A stretch of DNA of 64,000 nucleotides from Thermoplasmata archaeon. Its GTDB lineage: Archaea; Thermoplasmatota; Thermoplasmata; Thermoplasmatales; Thermoplasmataceae. The position numbers and the translations under genes are program-made. The stretch is taken from contig JAKAAY010000003.1 in NCBI GenBank assembly GCA_021802055.1, forward strand, positions 1 to 64,000, in the 5' to 3' direction. Under the pieces are notes generated by a model. It ran no database searches, was not told where the DNA came from, and saw nothing but the letters and a program-made list of their open reading frames with translations. The first letter of the stretch is position 1. Every line of letters starts with the position of its first letter. This document shows positions 16,176 through 22,093 of this stretch, one piece after another.

Positions 16176-16211
16176 AAAGGTGAAAGCAAATAGTTGTGCC
16201 TGCATGAAGGC

Positions 16212-16222
16212 ATAAAATATAT
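16212..16222 (+). promoter_or_regulatory. TATA box of the acyl-CoA dehydrogenase gene
   Basis: ATAAAATATAT lies about 30 bases before the ATG at 16248, arguing for that start rather than an upstream in-frame ATG at 16194. Confidence 0.5.
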
Positions 16223-16247
16223 GGCATTCAGATGTGTCACTCAGCTA

Positions 16248-17888
16248 ATGTCGTCATCACCCTTTTCATTTCTATCAAGCATATATGGTAAAAACATTCT
16301 GGAACTGGACAGGCCTTTTAAAATGTTTTCCGCGTACTTCGGCCAGGATATAGAACAGCTCACTCCTCTGGGAAAGTATGCCGGCAGGGAACTGTATGAA
16401 CTTGCAGAGCACGTGGACAAGAGAGCAAGGCCGGAACTCATCATGTGGGGCATTGATGGCACAAGGGTAGATCGGGCATGGCTCGATCCGTCTGAGAAGT
16501 CTTCCCTCGAGAGACTTGTAGTCGATTTCGGGGTGAACCGCTACCCGTATGGCCAAAACAACTGGTTCCTGCATTTTGCCTCCATATACCTTATCTCAGA
16601 TCCAGGCATTGCCTGTGTTCTCACGGTAACGAATCAGACTGCATACGCGATCCATAAGTATGGGAACGCAGAACAGAAGAAGCTTATCCCGTCACTTACT
16701 GGAACTTCAGAAGACATTCGCTGGGGTGCAACCTGGTTCACTGAACTTCAGGGAGGCAGCGATCTGGGTTCCAACTCGGTTGGTGCGGAATTTCGCAATG
16801 GTACCTGGTATATCAGCGGCACAACGAAATATTTCTCAAGCGATGCGGGGCTTGCAGACTATGCTCTTGTTTCTGCAAGGCGTACTGGAGGAGGTGCTGG
16901 GGCCAAAGGACTATCGCTGTTTCTGGTACCTGAGTTTGATAGCAGTGGAAGCAGGAATTTCACCGTGAGAAGGCTGAAGGACAAGAGCGGGACAGCAAGC
17001 GTCCCCACAGGGGAAGTAGAATTTCACAACTCATCAGCCACGGCCATAGGCGAACCTGACAAGGGAATTTATTATATAATGGAGGATCTGATGGTATCCA
17101 GGCTTTCCAACGCATTCGGAGCTCTGGGAACCGCAAGAAAAGCCTATCTTGAGGCTTATTTCTATTCTATGAAGAGGGAAGCCTTCGGCAGGAAACTGAT
17201 TGATCATCCCCTGGTCAGAAGGGATCTCATGGAAATGGAGATCTATCTGGAAGGCACGCTTTTGCTGACGCTGCTTTCTGTAGATGCTTTCCAGAAGTCA
17301 TGGCAGGACACACCGCCCTATACGGAAAAATATCACATGGCAAGACTTCTTACCCATGTTTCGAAAAACCTCACGGCAGACATGGCATCATTTGTCACTC
17401 AGATGGCTATGGAGCTCCATGGAGGGGTTGGCTTTCTGAGGGAGTTCCCCATTGAGAGGCTTCACAGAGAGGCCCTTATAACTCCAATATGGGAAGGGCC
17501 AAGCAATATCCAGGCCCTGGACATGCTGGAATCAATGCAGAAGAAAGGCTCTCATCTTCCCCTTCTCAAGACGCTAGACAAAATGGGGAAAGACATTTCG
17601 GAAAACAGTGACACCTACCAGAAGGCAGTCTCTTCCATTAAGTCGGCAATAAGCAGGACAGAGAGGATGTCAAGCGAAGACGCTCAGTTTTTTGCCAAGG
17701 ACCTCCTTAATGCCATTGGACACGGAACAGTGGTTGTCCTGTTGCTGCATGCAGGTAACTTAAGGAAGGATGCGAGGCTGGTTTCGATGGCGGCATTGTA
17801 TTATACGAAGTTTGTAGAGAGAAAAACCTATGGTCTCATAGACCCCAAGGTTTGTGATTCTATAATTCGGATCGATGGAGTTGAATGA
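16248..17888 (+). CDS. acyl-CoA dehydrogenase family protein (AidB-like long form)
   Basis: The flavoprotein has 546 residues, longer than classical acyl-CoA dehydrogenases (about 380) and close to the AidB/long-chain subgroup. The FAD-binding central motif WFTELQGGSDLGSNSV lies near residue 162, MELHGGVGFLREFPIERLHR near 388, and the AidB-type ITPIWEGPSNIQALDML near 410. It would oxidise an acyl-CoA or act as an AidB-like flavoprotein; no ETF genes are nearby. Start chosen from the TATA box spacing. The downstream Lys/Ser-rich gene begins after its stop with its own promoter-like sequence. Confidence 0.85.
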   Translation: MSSSPFSFLSSIYGKNILELDRPFKMFSAYFGQDIEQLTPLGKYAGRELYELAEHVDKRARPELIMWGIDGTRVDRAWLDPSEKSSLERLVVDFGVNRYPYGQNNWFLHFASIYLISDPGIACVLTVTNQTAYAIHKYGNAEQKKLIPSLTGTSEDIRWGATWFTELQGGSDLGSNSVGAEFRNGTWYISGTTKYFSSDAGLADYALVSARRTGGGAGAKGLSLFLVPEFDSSGSRNFTVRRLKDKSGTASVPTGEVEFHNSSATAIGEPDKGIYYIMEDLMVSRLSNAFGALGTARKAYLEAYFYSMKREAFGRKLIDHPLVRRDLMEMEIYLEGTLLLTLLSVDAFQKSWQDTPPYTEKYHMARLLTHVSKNLTADMASFVTQMAMELHGGVGFLREFPIERLHREALITPIWEGPSNIQALDMLESMQKKGSHLPLLKTLDKMGKDISENSDTYQKAVSSIKSAISRTERMSSEDAQFFAKDLLNAIGHGTVVVLLLHAGNLRKDARLVSMAALYYTKFVERKTYGLIDPKVCDSIIRIDGVE

Positions 17889-17964
17889 TGTTATACCCGT
17901 GATCAGGATCAATGTCTATTTTTTCTCAGCAAGGTTTTTTAATCCCAGAACAGTTAAGCCAATT

Positions 17965-18240
17965 ATGTGGCCGTTCAACAAAAAGAAAAAAGCAGGCACG
18001 GAATCAAAAACTACTGCGAAGGAACCCTCACAGCAACCAAAGAGCGCGGAACCGGCGGCGGAGTCACAGTCAACAAGCCCCCTGCCAGGAGCACCCAAAA
18101 CCAAGAGTGCTGAGGGAAAGACATCCGGCACAGGAAAGTCCAAGAAAACTAAATCATCAGACTCAGGTGCAAAGAAGGAGAGTGCCGGAAAATCCGCCTC
18201 TGAAGGAACCAAAGCTAAAAAGACGACAAAGAAAGAGTAG
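17965..18240 (+). CDS. lysine/serine-rich low-complexity small protein
   Basis: The 91-residue protein opens MWPFNKKKKAGTESK and is otherwise a disordered mix of Lys, Ser, Thr, Ala, Glu and Pro, ending KAKKTTKKE. It has no hydrophobic core and resembles histone-H1-type tails in composition. TTTTTTAATC about 26 bases upstream of the ATG suits a leaderless message; the frame extends upstream inside the acyl-CoA dehydrogenase gene but the promoter favours 17965. A role in nucleic-acid binding or as a disordered linker is inference only. Composition could reflect charge rather than homology. Confidence 0.55.
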   Translation: MWPFNKKKKAGTESKTTAKEPSQQPKSAEPAAESQSTSPLPGAPKTKSAEGKTSGTGKSKKTKSSDSGAKKESAGKSASEGTKAKKTTKKE

Positions 18241-18430
18241 GGACACCCTACTCATTTTTCCTTATAAATCAATGTTATAGATAAGATTCCTGAAGACAAT
18301 TTTAATGCAACTTATTGGTACCTGGTGAGCTTACTGGACCTCTTATCTTACTGCAGCCCAGTAACTGTAGGTTTCAAGCAATAAAAAATGGGACTTGGTA
18401 ATTTTCTTGGAATCGATAGCGTGGAAGAAG

Positions 18431-18478
18431 ATAAGCCACTGGAGGGATTTGAACCCCCGACCTGCTGATTACGAATCA
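18431..18478 (-). repeat. 48-bp direct repeat: 3' fragment of tRNA-Thr (att-like)
   Basis: Identical to 19484-19531 over 48 bases. It covers the 3' part of the tRNA-Thr gene (anticodon loop to acceptor 3' end) plus 4 trailing bases. The 5' half of the tRNA is missing, so it is not functional. This is the signature of the distal attachment site left when an element integrates into a tRNA gene. Confidence 0.85.
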
Positions 18479-18617
18479 CAATTACATGCTTGATTTAACA
18501 GGGAAAACCATTCACCAGAAAATCATTACTTTCCAGATGTCATGTTTTTACCCTACATTTCAAAACAAAGTTGTTTAATGAGGCTTAAATAATGAATTTA
18601 GATTTCTAAGAATACGT

Positions 18618-19241
18618 ATGAAAACACCAAAAGAGTTTTACACAGAGATGGGGGCAGATTGGCTCTCAAGGATGAAAGATAATGCCATCACTGAAAGTGA
18701 ATTATCCTATCTCACAAAAATTCTAAAAAATGGTTCAACAATTTTGGACCTAGCGTGTGGATATGGCAGATTATCCATACCTCTTGCAGAACATGGGTAT
18801 ACCGTTTATGGGGTGGATATTACTCCGGTCTTCATTGAAAAAGCCACGCAGGAAGCAAAGAAACGGAACCTGAACGTTGAATTCAAGATCGGGGACATGA
18901 GAAACATACCATACCCGGATGCCTCATTTGACTATGTCATTTGTATGTGGAATGCATTCAGTGAACTTTCCACTGAACAAGTGCAAATCACAGTGATTAA
19001 CGAAATATATAGAGTACTTAAAAAAACAGGATTGGCAATTATTGAAATGAGGAATCACAGGTCAAGTGGACTTGTGGAAAAAAACTTTATTGAAAGGTTT
19101 GAAGCAATGCCAAGCTTCAACCATACTAGGGGAAGTATCAAGCGATTGATGCGTCTGTCTAGGGTGACGAATTTCAAGGTATTTATTGATGATTTCGGAG
19201 GGCGGAAAAGACTAATCTTGGAAATACTAAAGACTGAATGA
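18618..19241 (+). CDS. class I SAM-dependent methyltransferase
   Basis: At 207 residues it has the class I motif I (ILDLACGYGRLSIPLAEHGY, near residue 43), an acidic ribose-binding position (VYGVDITPVFIEKA) and motif IV-like FDYVICMWNAFSEL. The substrate is not recognisable; related short enzymes act on small molecules or proteins. Base composition is visibly more AT-rich than neighbouring genes. It is the only gene inside the tRNA-Thr-bounded segment, which suggests acquisition with the element. Confidence 0.8.
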   Translation: MKTPKEFYTEMGADWLSRMKDNAITESELSYLTKILKNGSTILDLACGYGRLSIPLAEHGYTVYGVDITPVFIEKATQEAKKRNLNVEFKIGDMRNIPYPDASFDYVICMWNAFSELSTEQVQITVINEIYRVLKKTGLAIIEMRNHRSSGLVEKNFIERFEAMPSFNHTRGSIKRLMRLSRVTNFKVFIDDFGGRKRLILEILKTE

Positions 19242-19483
19242 TGCCACAAGATCTAAAGGGCTTGAAATTCATTGAGTGGAATGGAAAAATTTGCATGGAG
19301 TGTTATACTGAAGATTCAGTATAATTAGGTAGACAGAAAATTGCATTGCTGGATATGGGAAAAGTTATTGAAAATAAACATAAAATGTATTATTCACTCA
19401 GTGAAAACTTACAGGAAAGTGAAAATCAGTAGACTATGAAAATAAACGTTTTGAAATATGTTAAAACCCCAATATTTTGTAAT

Positions 19484-19531
19484 ATAAGCCACTGGAGGGA
19501 TTTGAACCCCCGACCTGCTGATTACGAATCA
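19484..19531 (-). repeat. 48-bp direct repeat within intact tRNA-Thr (att-like)
   Basis: Second copy of the repeat at 18431-18478, here forming the 3' portion of the complete tRNA-Thr gene plus four trailing bases. Confidence 0.85.
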
Positions 19532-19559
19532 GCTGCTCAACCAGCTAAGCTACAGTGGC
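19488..19559 (-). tRNA. tRNA-Thr (anticodon CGT)
   Basis: 72 bases on the minus strand fold into a complete cloverleaf: acceptor GCCACTG/CAGTGGC, D stem GCTT/GAGC, anticodon stem GCTGA/TCAGC with loop TTCGTAA (anticodon CGT, reads ACG), and T arm with loop TTCAAAT. No intron; CCA is not encoded. Discriminator U is usual for archaeal tRNA-Thr. It hosts the putative integration. Confidence 0.93.
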
Positions 19560-19650: not shown

Positions 19651-20367
19651 TCAAAAAGATTCAGCAAGCGAAAGAATGCTGGCAGCGGTTTCTACAGGTT
19701 TTGTGATCATGGGCCAGTGCCCGGATTCGATTACCTTATAAGGGCCGTGGAGTCCGGACTTTATCACATCCTCCGGGTTGTCGCCTCCTGAAGTGCAGAG
19801 GATATGGGCTTTCTTTATCCCTGGATACTTGGGACTCAGTATAATGGAGTCGGAAATATATCGATAGGGAAGAGGCGTTATTCTTGAAAGGAAATCAGCC
19901 CTCAATTCCTGAGAAAAATCTCCACCAATTTGGGAAAACACTTCGTTAGTGAGTAAGTAGTAGCCTCCCCATTTCTTATGGACGTCTTCCAGGAATTCAT
20001 TACGGTCTTTAGCGTTCCACTGATCTATGCCGCACTGGCTTTCTTCAGTGTTTTGGGGGATTATGGAATCCAGAAATATCAAACCTGAAACCGAATCATG
20101 ATTCAGATCTGCAACTTTGGCAGCCAGTTTACCAGCAAAGCTGTGTCCTACGATGACTGGGTTTCTGGGCCTGTCGTACTTAAGCACATTCTGTACGTCA
20201 TTTACTGCATCTTGAATCGAAAGATCGCGGCTCGCAAGATGCACCCTGTCGCCCATTCCCGTTAGAGTGATGCAGAAAGTCCTGTGTCCACTTCTATTCA
20301 GAATACCGGCAACATTTTCCCAGCACCAGCCCCCAAGCCAGGCACCCGGTATGAGCAAAAAATCCAT
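19651..20367 (-). CDS. alpha/beta hydrolase (esterase-like)
   Basis: The 238-residue protein fits the plant-esterase/EstA-like group of alpha/beta hydrolases: oxyanion-side LIPGAWLGGWCWENV at the N-terminus, nucleophile Ser in VGHSFAGK near residue 75, and catalytic His in VIESGHWPM near 217. An Asp in the LDSIIP or CTSGGDNPED region would complete the triad. Cytoplasmic, with no signal peptide. Substrate unknown; small esters are likely for this group. It lies just downstream of the tRNA-Thr and may belong to the accessory stretch. Confidence 0.8.
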   Translation of the reverse strand: MDFLLIPGAWLGGWCWENVAGILNRSGHRTFCITLTGMGDRVHLASRDLSIQDAVNDVQNVLKYDRPRNPVIVGHSFAGKLAAKVADLNHDSVSGLIFLDSIIPQNTEESQCGIDQWNAKDRNEFLEDVHKKWGGYYLLTNEVFSQIGGDFSQELRADFLSRITPLPYRYISDSIILSPKYPGIKKAHILCTSGGDNPEDVIKSGLHGPYKVIESGHWPMITKPVETAASILSLAESF

Positions 20368-21051: not shown

Positions 21052-22093
21052 ATGGCCGCCGGGAAGCCCGGACACGGATCCAGTGATAAATCAGAAAGCC
21101 GGGAATGGAAAAGGGAACGGGGTTTTGAAATGCTGAAGAAAGGCAAGAAGCAGTCCGTTATATCAAAAAGACTCGAGGTGAACCGAAAGACAGTATACAA
21201 CTGGTCAGTCAAACTGGAACAGAGCGGAGACTGGCATGACAGGAAGCAGCCCGGTTCCAAGAGTAAGCTGACAAAGGATCAGAAAGAGAAGCTGAAGAAA
21301 ATAATAGACTGTGGTCCAAGGTCATACGGCTATGATACTGATCTGTGGACACTGAAGAGAATATCTGAAGTCATATCAAGGGAATTCGACGTAAGTTACA
21401 ACACGACACACATCTGGAGAGTGCTGAAAAACCTGGGTTATTCAGCACAGATCCCGGTTGCGGTGGCCATGGAGAAGAATTCCGAATACGTGAAGGAATG
21501 GCTTGAAAAGAACTATCCGGAATATATGAAGGAGGCCATGGAGAAGAGTGCGACCATTCTCTTCCAGGATGAATCGGGAGTGCAGAGCAGACCCAACGTG
21601 AGGAGGACATGGTCTCCCAGGGGCAGGAGACCAGCCATAAGGGTGAGAGAGAAGAGGGATAAGATATCCATATCCTCTGCCGTATCTGCGGATGGCGATC
21701 TGTATTTCGCCATAAAGGAGGGGGAGCATGAACGAGGATGACATCATCTCATTTCTGGATCAGCTTTTCTCATAAATACATGGATTTCTCTACATATTCC
21801 GGGACAACATCATGATACACAGGAACGGTAAAGTCAGGGAATATCTCGGCACGCATAATGATCGGCTCATTACAAGGCGCATATCCGCATATTCTCCCGA
21901 GCTGAATCCCGATGAACTGGTATGGAATGCCCTGAAATATCAGGAGCTACCAAATTTCTGCCCTGAAATCATGGATGATCTGAAGAATGCTGTCACATCT
22001 ACCATGAATAAACTTAAGAGCAACCCGGAAAGGCTTAGAAACATAATCAGAGGCTCAAGCCTTCCCTTACCACCCTTAACAGGAAAAAATTAA
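21052..22093 (+). pseudogene. IS630-family transposase, frameshifted and with an in-frame stop
   Basis: The N-terminal part (21052-21741) carries two helix-turn-helix regions (SVISKRLEVNRKTVYNWSVK; YNTTHIWRVLKNLGYS) and the first catalytic Asp in LFQDESGVQS. After a frameshift near 21725 the second frame continues MNEDDIISFLDQLFS, meets a TAA at 21773-21775, then continues FRDNIMIHRN (second Asp) and AYSPELNPDELVWN (catalytic Glu). Two independent lesions argue for a dead copy rather than programmed frameshifting. Imperfect terminal repeats sharing TATTCTA may lie near 21012 and 22100. Confidence 0.85.

Follow-up and report, generated by a model that had tools for sequence, protein, structure and literature searches.

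Tycheposons of Prochlorococcus are cargo elements at tRNA genes, some of them small, and the full elements have been described with tyrosine recombinases of their own. Acidophilic archaea have been reported to contain islands of 4-92 kb (PMC12302457), and other archaea to contain elements with an integrase (PMC6563490, PMC3718332). Elements of the SSV1 and pNOB8 types target a tRNA gene and form a direct repeat of its 3′ part (PMC8371274, PMC6563490), and for IntSSV1 strand exchange in the anticodon loop (the overlap region) has been shown experimentally (PMC8371274). Integron cassettes and CALINs, which are clusters of attC sites without IntI and also occur in archaea, are compact and promiscuous, form tandem arrays, can be served by a recombinase acting in trans, and have cargo of the toxin-antitoxin, acetyltransferase and glyoxalase type (PMC9668308). 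The dif (pdif) modules of Acinetobacter are ~1-3 kb long with one or two genes, often toxin-antitoxin, and no recombinase of their own, and their mobility has been attributed to host XerC/XerD (PMC6449649, PMC13141974).

The locus reported here resembles the last three systems in the traits just named. It lies in a 64,000-nucleotide stretch of an archaeal contig, hereafter the window, and we consider, with a probability of about 0.8, that a 1053-bp segment of it is a non-autonomous, integron-like mobile cassette, site-specific at tRNA-Thr and moved by a tyrosine recombinase in trans. No earlier description of this tRNA-Thr cassette arrangement was found in literature on cassettes based on a tRNA, tRNA elements without integrase and toxin-antitoxin modules of these archaea, where coverage of subscription journals was limited, and this absence is not proof.

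The duplicated tRNA-Thr 3′ half and its methyltransferase gene

The features of the locus are as follows.

19487-19559, minus strand: intact tRNA-Thr (CGT), the integration target (ARAGORN; acceptor stem fully paired; 3′ half shared with the displaced copy)
18431-18478, minus strand: displaced tRNA-Thr 3′ half, a distal att-like site, TGTGATTCGTAATCAGCAGG... (repeat comparison and 20-nt signature scan)
19522-19528, minus strand: anticodon loop of the intact tRNA, TTCGTAA, where crossover is presumed (sequence; homology switch point in relatives; IntSSV1 overlap region, PMC8371274)
18476-19528, minus strand: proposed cassette unit, 1053 bp (repeat spacing; three pairs of relatives whose homology switches at the anticodon loop)
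18618-19241, plus strand: cargo gene, class I SAM-dependent methyltransferase, 207 aa (Pfam; orthologue beside a tRNA-Thr 3′ half in G014, locus L075; dN/dS ~0.12)
17875-18240, plus strand: flanking Lys-rich protein gene (syntenic in G002 of the same genus, along with the acyl-CoA dehydrogenase gene at 16194-17888)
19651-20367, minus strand: flanking alpha/beta hydrolase gene 5′ of the tRNA (likewise 5′ of tRNA-Thr in G008)

A direct repeat of 51 nt (18428-18478 and 19481-19531) is 98% identical between its copies, exact over 48 nt, and spaced by 1053 bp. Both copies are the 3′ part of tRNA-Thr(CGT) on the same strand, and a single intact class I methyltransferase gene stands between them. Because the tRNA is on the minus strand, the element is positioned on the 3′ side of the intact tRNA, and the anticodon loop is where the displaced copy begins. 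We take the two anticodon loops, that of the intact tRNA and that of the displaced copy, as the limits of the unit. A 20-nt site signature matched the window twice at ≤2 mismatches, once perfectly, and did not match any of 100 shuffles; the repeat is not a product of chance. Among the ~45 tRNA genes of the window's genome only tRNA-Thr(CGT) has a displaced 3′ copy, several of the other tRNAs lying so close to contig ends that little 3′ sequence could be inspected. The GC-content is 0.355 in the cassette DNA and 0.48 in the whole window. The preliminary description had recognized the exact 48-bp repeat in one orientation, the AT-rich methyltransferase gene as the only gene between its copies, and an architecture of tRNA-targeted integration without integrase, and all of these are borne out: the intact tRNA stands at one end of the direct repeat and no integrase is encoded.

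Two further features were seen in this region. A palindrome, ATACTGAAGATTCAGTAT, lies at 19305-19322 between the methyltransferase gene and the tRNA and is perhaps a terminator. An IS630-like transposase (HTH_33/DDE_3) at 21052-22093 is in two frames (21052-21741 and 21812-22093) and is probably a broken copy.

The only gene-sized ORF between the repeats (18618-19241, plus strand, 207 aa) matches Methyltransf_25/11 of Pfam (E 6.5e-25) and has the SAM motif ILDLACGYG. Its closest relative, 79-80% identical, is in G014, where 203 bp separate it from a tRNA-Thr 3′ half and its orientation matches that in the window, in a unit whose distal end is not recognised. Comparison of these two genes (dN 0.11, dS 0.92, dN/dS ~0.12) indicates purifying selection on the methyltransferase. 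No tRNA-Thr site was found near seven other orthologues (G030, G015, G016, G022, G017, G006 and G004). An anti-defence or modification function had been suggested for this cargo. Its library matches are generic methyltransferases, and the 207-aa protein has neither a [DNS]PP[YFW] (NPPY-type) DNA-methyltransferase catalytic motif nor a PC; the anti-defence role is unsupported, and the substrate is probably not DNA, a small molecule or RNA being our most likely guess. An assignment to PADLOC mad2 was rejected, as that match spans only the generic methyltransferase domain. Origin as a phage or plasmid gene was likewise rejected, with just distant class I relatives of <40% identity among the matches listed.

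Recurrence and conserved ends of the cassettes

When 61 genomes of the family were searched with the tRNA, partial matches covering only the 3′ half were found 1-6 kb 3′ of intact tRNA-Thr in many genera. Sites were mapped on the retrieved loci with profiles, and a distal-end model was then run on all 77 species genomes of the family and on the order, with one genome per species and hence no strain-level polymorphism. Combining both searches, the same layout, in which tRNA-Thr is followed by a body of 0.8-6 kb and by a copy of the tRNA 3′ half that begins at the anticodon loop, recurs in at least 23 of the 77 genomes and in 12 of 19 genera. Both tRNA-Thr(CGT) and tRNA-Thr(TGT) are targets, and four genomes (G010, G018, G069 and G021) have tandem arrays of two or more sites. 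Clear full-length matches of the distal-end model were limited to the family in the order-wide search. The methyltransferase element, whose gene had been described as a lone one, belongs to a widespread family, and elements of the same kind do occur at other tRNA-Thr genes.

Several matches outside this pattern were also recorded. The distal-end model gave a weak match (35.9 bits) at G043:C14:35780-35872, in another family of the order. In G010 (L073, 9902-9997) tandem tRNA-Thr 3′ halves are just 51 bp apart and resemble an empty cassette. The tRNA-Thr sites and flanks of L250 (G073:C138) and L241 (G014) look alike in different genera, and contamination of the G073 assembly is possible. The exact 20-nt signature occurs at loci L134-L168 in several bacteria (Bacteroidota, Bacillota and Nitrospirae), possibly as displaced tRNA-Thr ends of bacterial islands. 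No viral contig had the 20-nt signature or the proximal arm, and two viral matches to the distal arm had no score with the distal-end model.

The two ends of the window's cassette carry non-coding arms.

18476-18540, minus strand: distal non-coding arm, with TTTCCCTGTTAA on the minus strand at 18495-18506 and ACTTTCCAGA on the plus strand at 18528-18537 (leave-one-out profile)
19286-19486, minus strand: proximal non-coding arm 3′ of the tRNA, TATATTACAAAATATTGGGGTTTT..., with the arm motif ACTTTCCTGTAAGTT on the minus strand at 19406-19420

Left of the anticodon loop, displaced copies read TGTRATTCG where the tRNA reads CTGATTCG, and they have a further 60-70 nt in common with the consensus ..CAGGAAA....ATTTTC....TTTTTCCTGTtAAAnnAAGCAnnTAAnTGTRATTCG. 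Leave-one-out profiles, made without the tRNA-derived part, ranked 10 of 13 sites, that of the window (20.6 bits) among them, ahead of all controls (500 random windows and 300 shuffles per site), and the distal arm was unrecognisable in the other three. Model R1 matches 18445-18540 with 82.8 bits, the window sequence being part of its training set; sites outside model building (G091, G100, G014 and G030) scored 57-73 bits. On the other side, the proximal arm is ~80% identical over +1 to +201 to tRNA-Thr loci of several other genera, and this second arm right of the tRNA (TATATTACAAAATAnTGnGTTTTT ... ACTTTCCTGTAAGTTTTC) is common to many occupied loci. Judged from these profiles and alignments, cassettes that are otherwise unrelated have non-coding ends in common, conserved beyond the tRNA-derived part. 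The motif TTTCCTGTnAA, repeated on both sides, may be compared with the arm sites of lambda-type attP.

Cargo of the family consists mostly of VapBC-type toxin-antitoxin pairs. A PIN-domain toxin gene, usually with an antitoxin, is present in 16 of 27 bodies, whose median length is ~1.65 kb, and other cargo includes GNAT acetyltransferase, glyoxalase-like protein, Fic, MFS, regulators, methyltransferase, and type I restriction-modification, the last assigned by reading of the sequence rather than by Pfam. In L089 (G033:C55, 9811-11235 in tRNA orientation) a gene with RRXRR and HNH (IscB-like) stands between the vapC and vapB of the cassette, as if inserted. When tyrosine recombinases, IntI among them, were looked for, no PF00589 match overlapped any array; the nearest integrase is in G010, ~13 kb past the last site and not bounded by a site. 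In the window's genome one intact tyrosine recombinase, XerA, was found together with a 69-aa remnant, and in G016 XerA is the only intact one detected. The remnant (L210, G000:C36:12377-12541) contains a stop and lies ~100 bp from tRNA-Ser(TGA).

These data bear on whether the cassettes are decayed remnants of ordinary integrase-bearing islands or proviruses at tRNA-Thr that have lost their integrase by deletion, an alternative already raised for the window as a relic of one island. Archaea commonly have tRNA-targeted islands and integrase remnants (PMC3718332, PMC8371274), some bodies reach 4-6 kb, and an integrase remnant is present elsewhere in the window's genome. However, remnants of this origin hardly account for unrelated cargo in similarly compact bodies with both ends intact and conserved, for open genes under purifying selection, and for the failure to detect an integrase fragment in any array, and we regard this origin as unlikely. 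The larger bodies of 4-6 kb may instead be several merged, decayed cassettes.

Polymorphism between relatives and the switch at the anticodon loop

Species of the same genus keep both flanks of the site and differ in what lies between them, as in G004/G062 (90-93%) and G013/G066 (84-91%). In G002, of the window's genus, glyoxalase-like and repeat-protein genes stand between the same flanks where the window has the methyltransferase, the G002 locus having been assembled from two contigs that overlap by 127 identical bases. Within genus g2 the number of cassettes is none in G003, one (771 bp) in G100 and two in G021. G003 and G100 are 95% identical upstream and only ~70-77% alike in the flank next to the tRNA, and despite this divergence they come close to an empty and filled pair, so that G003 may be taken as a near-empty site. 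The methyltransferase gene is not fixed at this position in all relatives. If the tRNA 3′ end had simply been duplicated locally, on either side of a resident methyltransferase gene, two near-identical 48-bp copies in one genome would result, as are found here, but such a duplication explains neither the same flanks without the methyltransferase in G002 nor the distal arm common to unrelated cassettes, and is disfavoured as very improbable. The suggestion of a very small element moved in trans is, in contrast, well supported by this synteny, the near-empty site, the att-like ends and the many relatives.

Loci from different genera or slots were alike in three pairs rightwards from the anticodon loop and unrelated leftwards of it, with identity of ~30% immediately left of the switch point. 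The third site of G018 corresponds to the tRNA site of G016 (93% over 701 bp), the second site of G004 to that of G068, and the second site of G013 to that of G029. Such a homology switch at the anticodon loop is the outcome expected of strand exchange there. Cassettes have also been transferred across genera: a block of two cassettes is 90% identical between G013 and G021, which belong to different genera, whereas chromosomal flanks common to different genera are mostly 64-75% alike.

The tRNA genes themselves have traces of such exchange. In G023 and G029 the 5′ end of tRNA-Thr is GCCACTG and the 3′ end CAGCGGC, which gives an A-C mismatch in the acceptor stem, the 3′ end being of a type seen in other genera. 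G014 and G023 have one array in common (85-91%), and the tRNA of G014 pairs properly. As far as can be read from sequence, the mismatched tRNA-Thr fits replacement of its 3′ half by an incoming cassette. G076 is the opposite case, with foreign acceptor sequence on the displaced copy and not on the tRNA, a sign that correction at a later time, or homologous exchange, may take place as well. Homologous recombination might even suffice by itself, if circular or linear DNA with a tRNA-Thr 3′ half crossed over within the 42-48 bp of homology and no dedicated recombinase took part. A single crossover in the common 3′ half gives the same product, and G076 is in line with it, but both the conservation of arms outside the homology and the use of tRNA-Thr alone among ~45 tRNAs are left unexplained, and we rate this explanation as improbable, slightly more so than the decay of islands.

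Proposed mechanism and comparison with known systems

According to the cassette model, the mobile form would be a circle, whose att site would consist of the distal arm and the anticodon-loop core with the tRNA-Thr 3′ half and the proximal arm. Strands would be exchanged in the anticodon loop of tRNA-Thr by a tyrosine recombinase acting in trans, for which the resident XerA or a virus or plasmid integrase are candidates. The incoming 3′ half would restore a functional tRNA and displace the old one to the far end. Repeated insertions would then produce tandem arrays, recombination between 3′ halves would remove or reorder cassettes, and the process may be active at present. More tentatively, and with odds that we put below even, tRNA-Thr may be an integron-like platform of gene capture, in which a single recombinase encoded elsewhere, perhaps the chromosome-dimer resolvase XerA, takes up cassettes with double-arm att sites, reshuffles them and exchanges them between archaeal genera.

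Through such cassettes uncultured acidophilic archaea would exchange genes by a route that gene-centred searches for integrases would overlook, and the cassettes would be mobile DNA that swaps half a tRNA gene between genera. The defined att site could be used as bait for the recombinase.

The cassettes differ from each of the known systems. Elements of the SSV1 and pNOB8 types have an integrase and replication or virion genes, and the cassettes have neither. Tycheposons have different hosts and sites, and are set apart by description only. The dif modules use Xer sites on plasmids, whereas the site here is a chromosomal tRNA-Thr 3′ half; the Thermococcus-type dif pattern (11-6-11 Xer/dif) singled out no dif site in these genomes, and the cassette core is tRNA-derived and by eye not dif-like. 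Unlike integrons and CALINs, the cassettes use a tRNA gene as platform and a double-armed tRNA-Thr 3′ half as site, and their units begin at the anticodon loop of this 3′ half rather than at an attC site with R′/R″ boxes and hairpin. The piece in the window is probably one of many tiny mobile cassettes behind tRNA-Thr in acid-loving archaea, which would dock through a copied tRNA half without a recombinase of their own, like bacterial integron cassettes but built from a tRNA.
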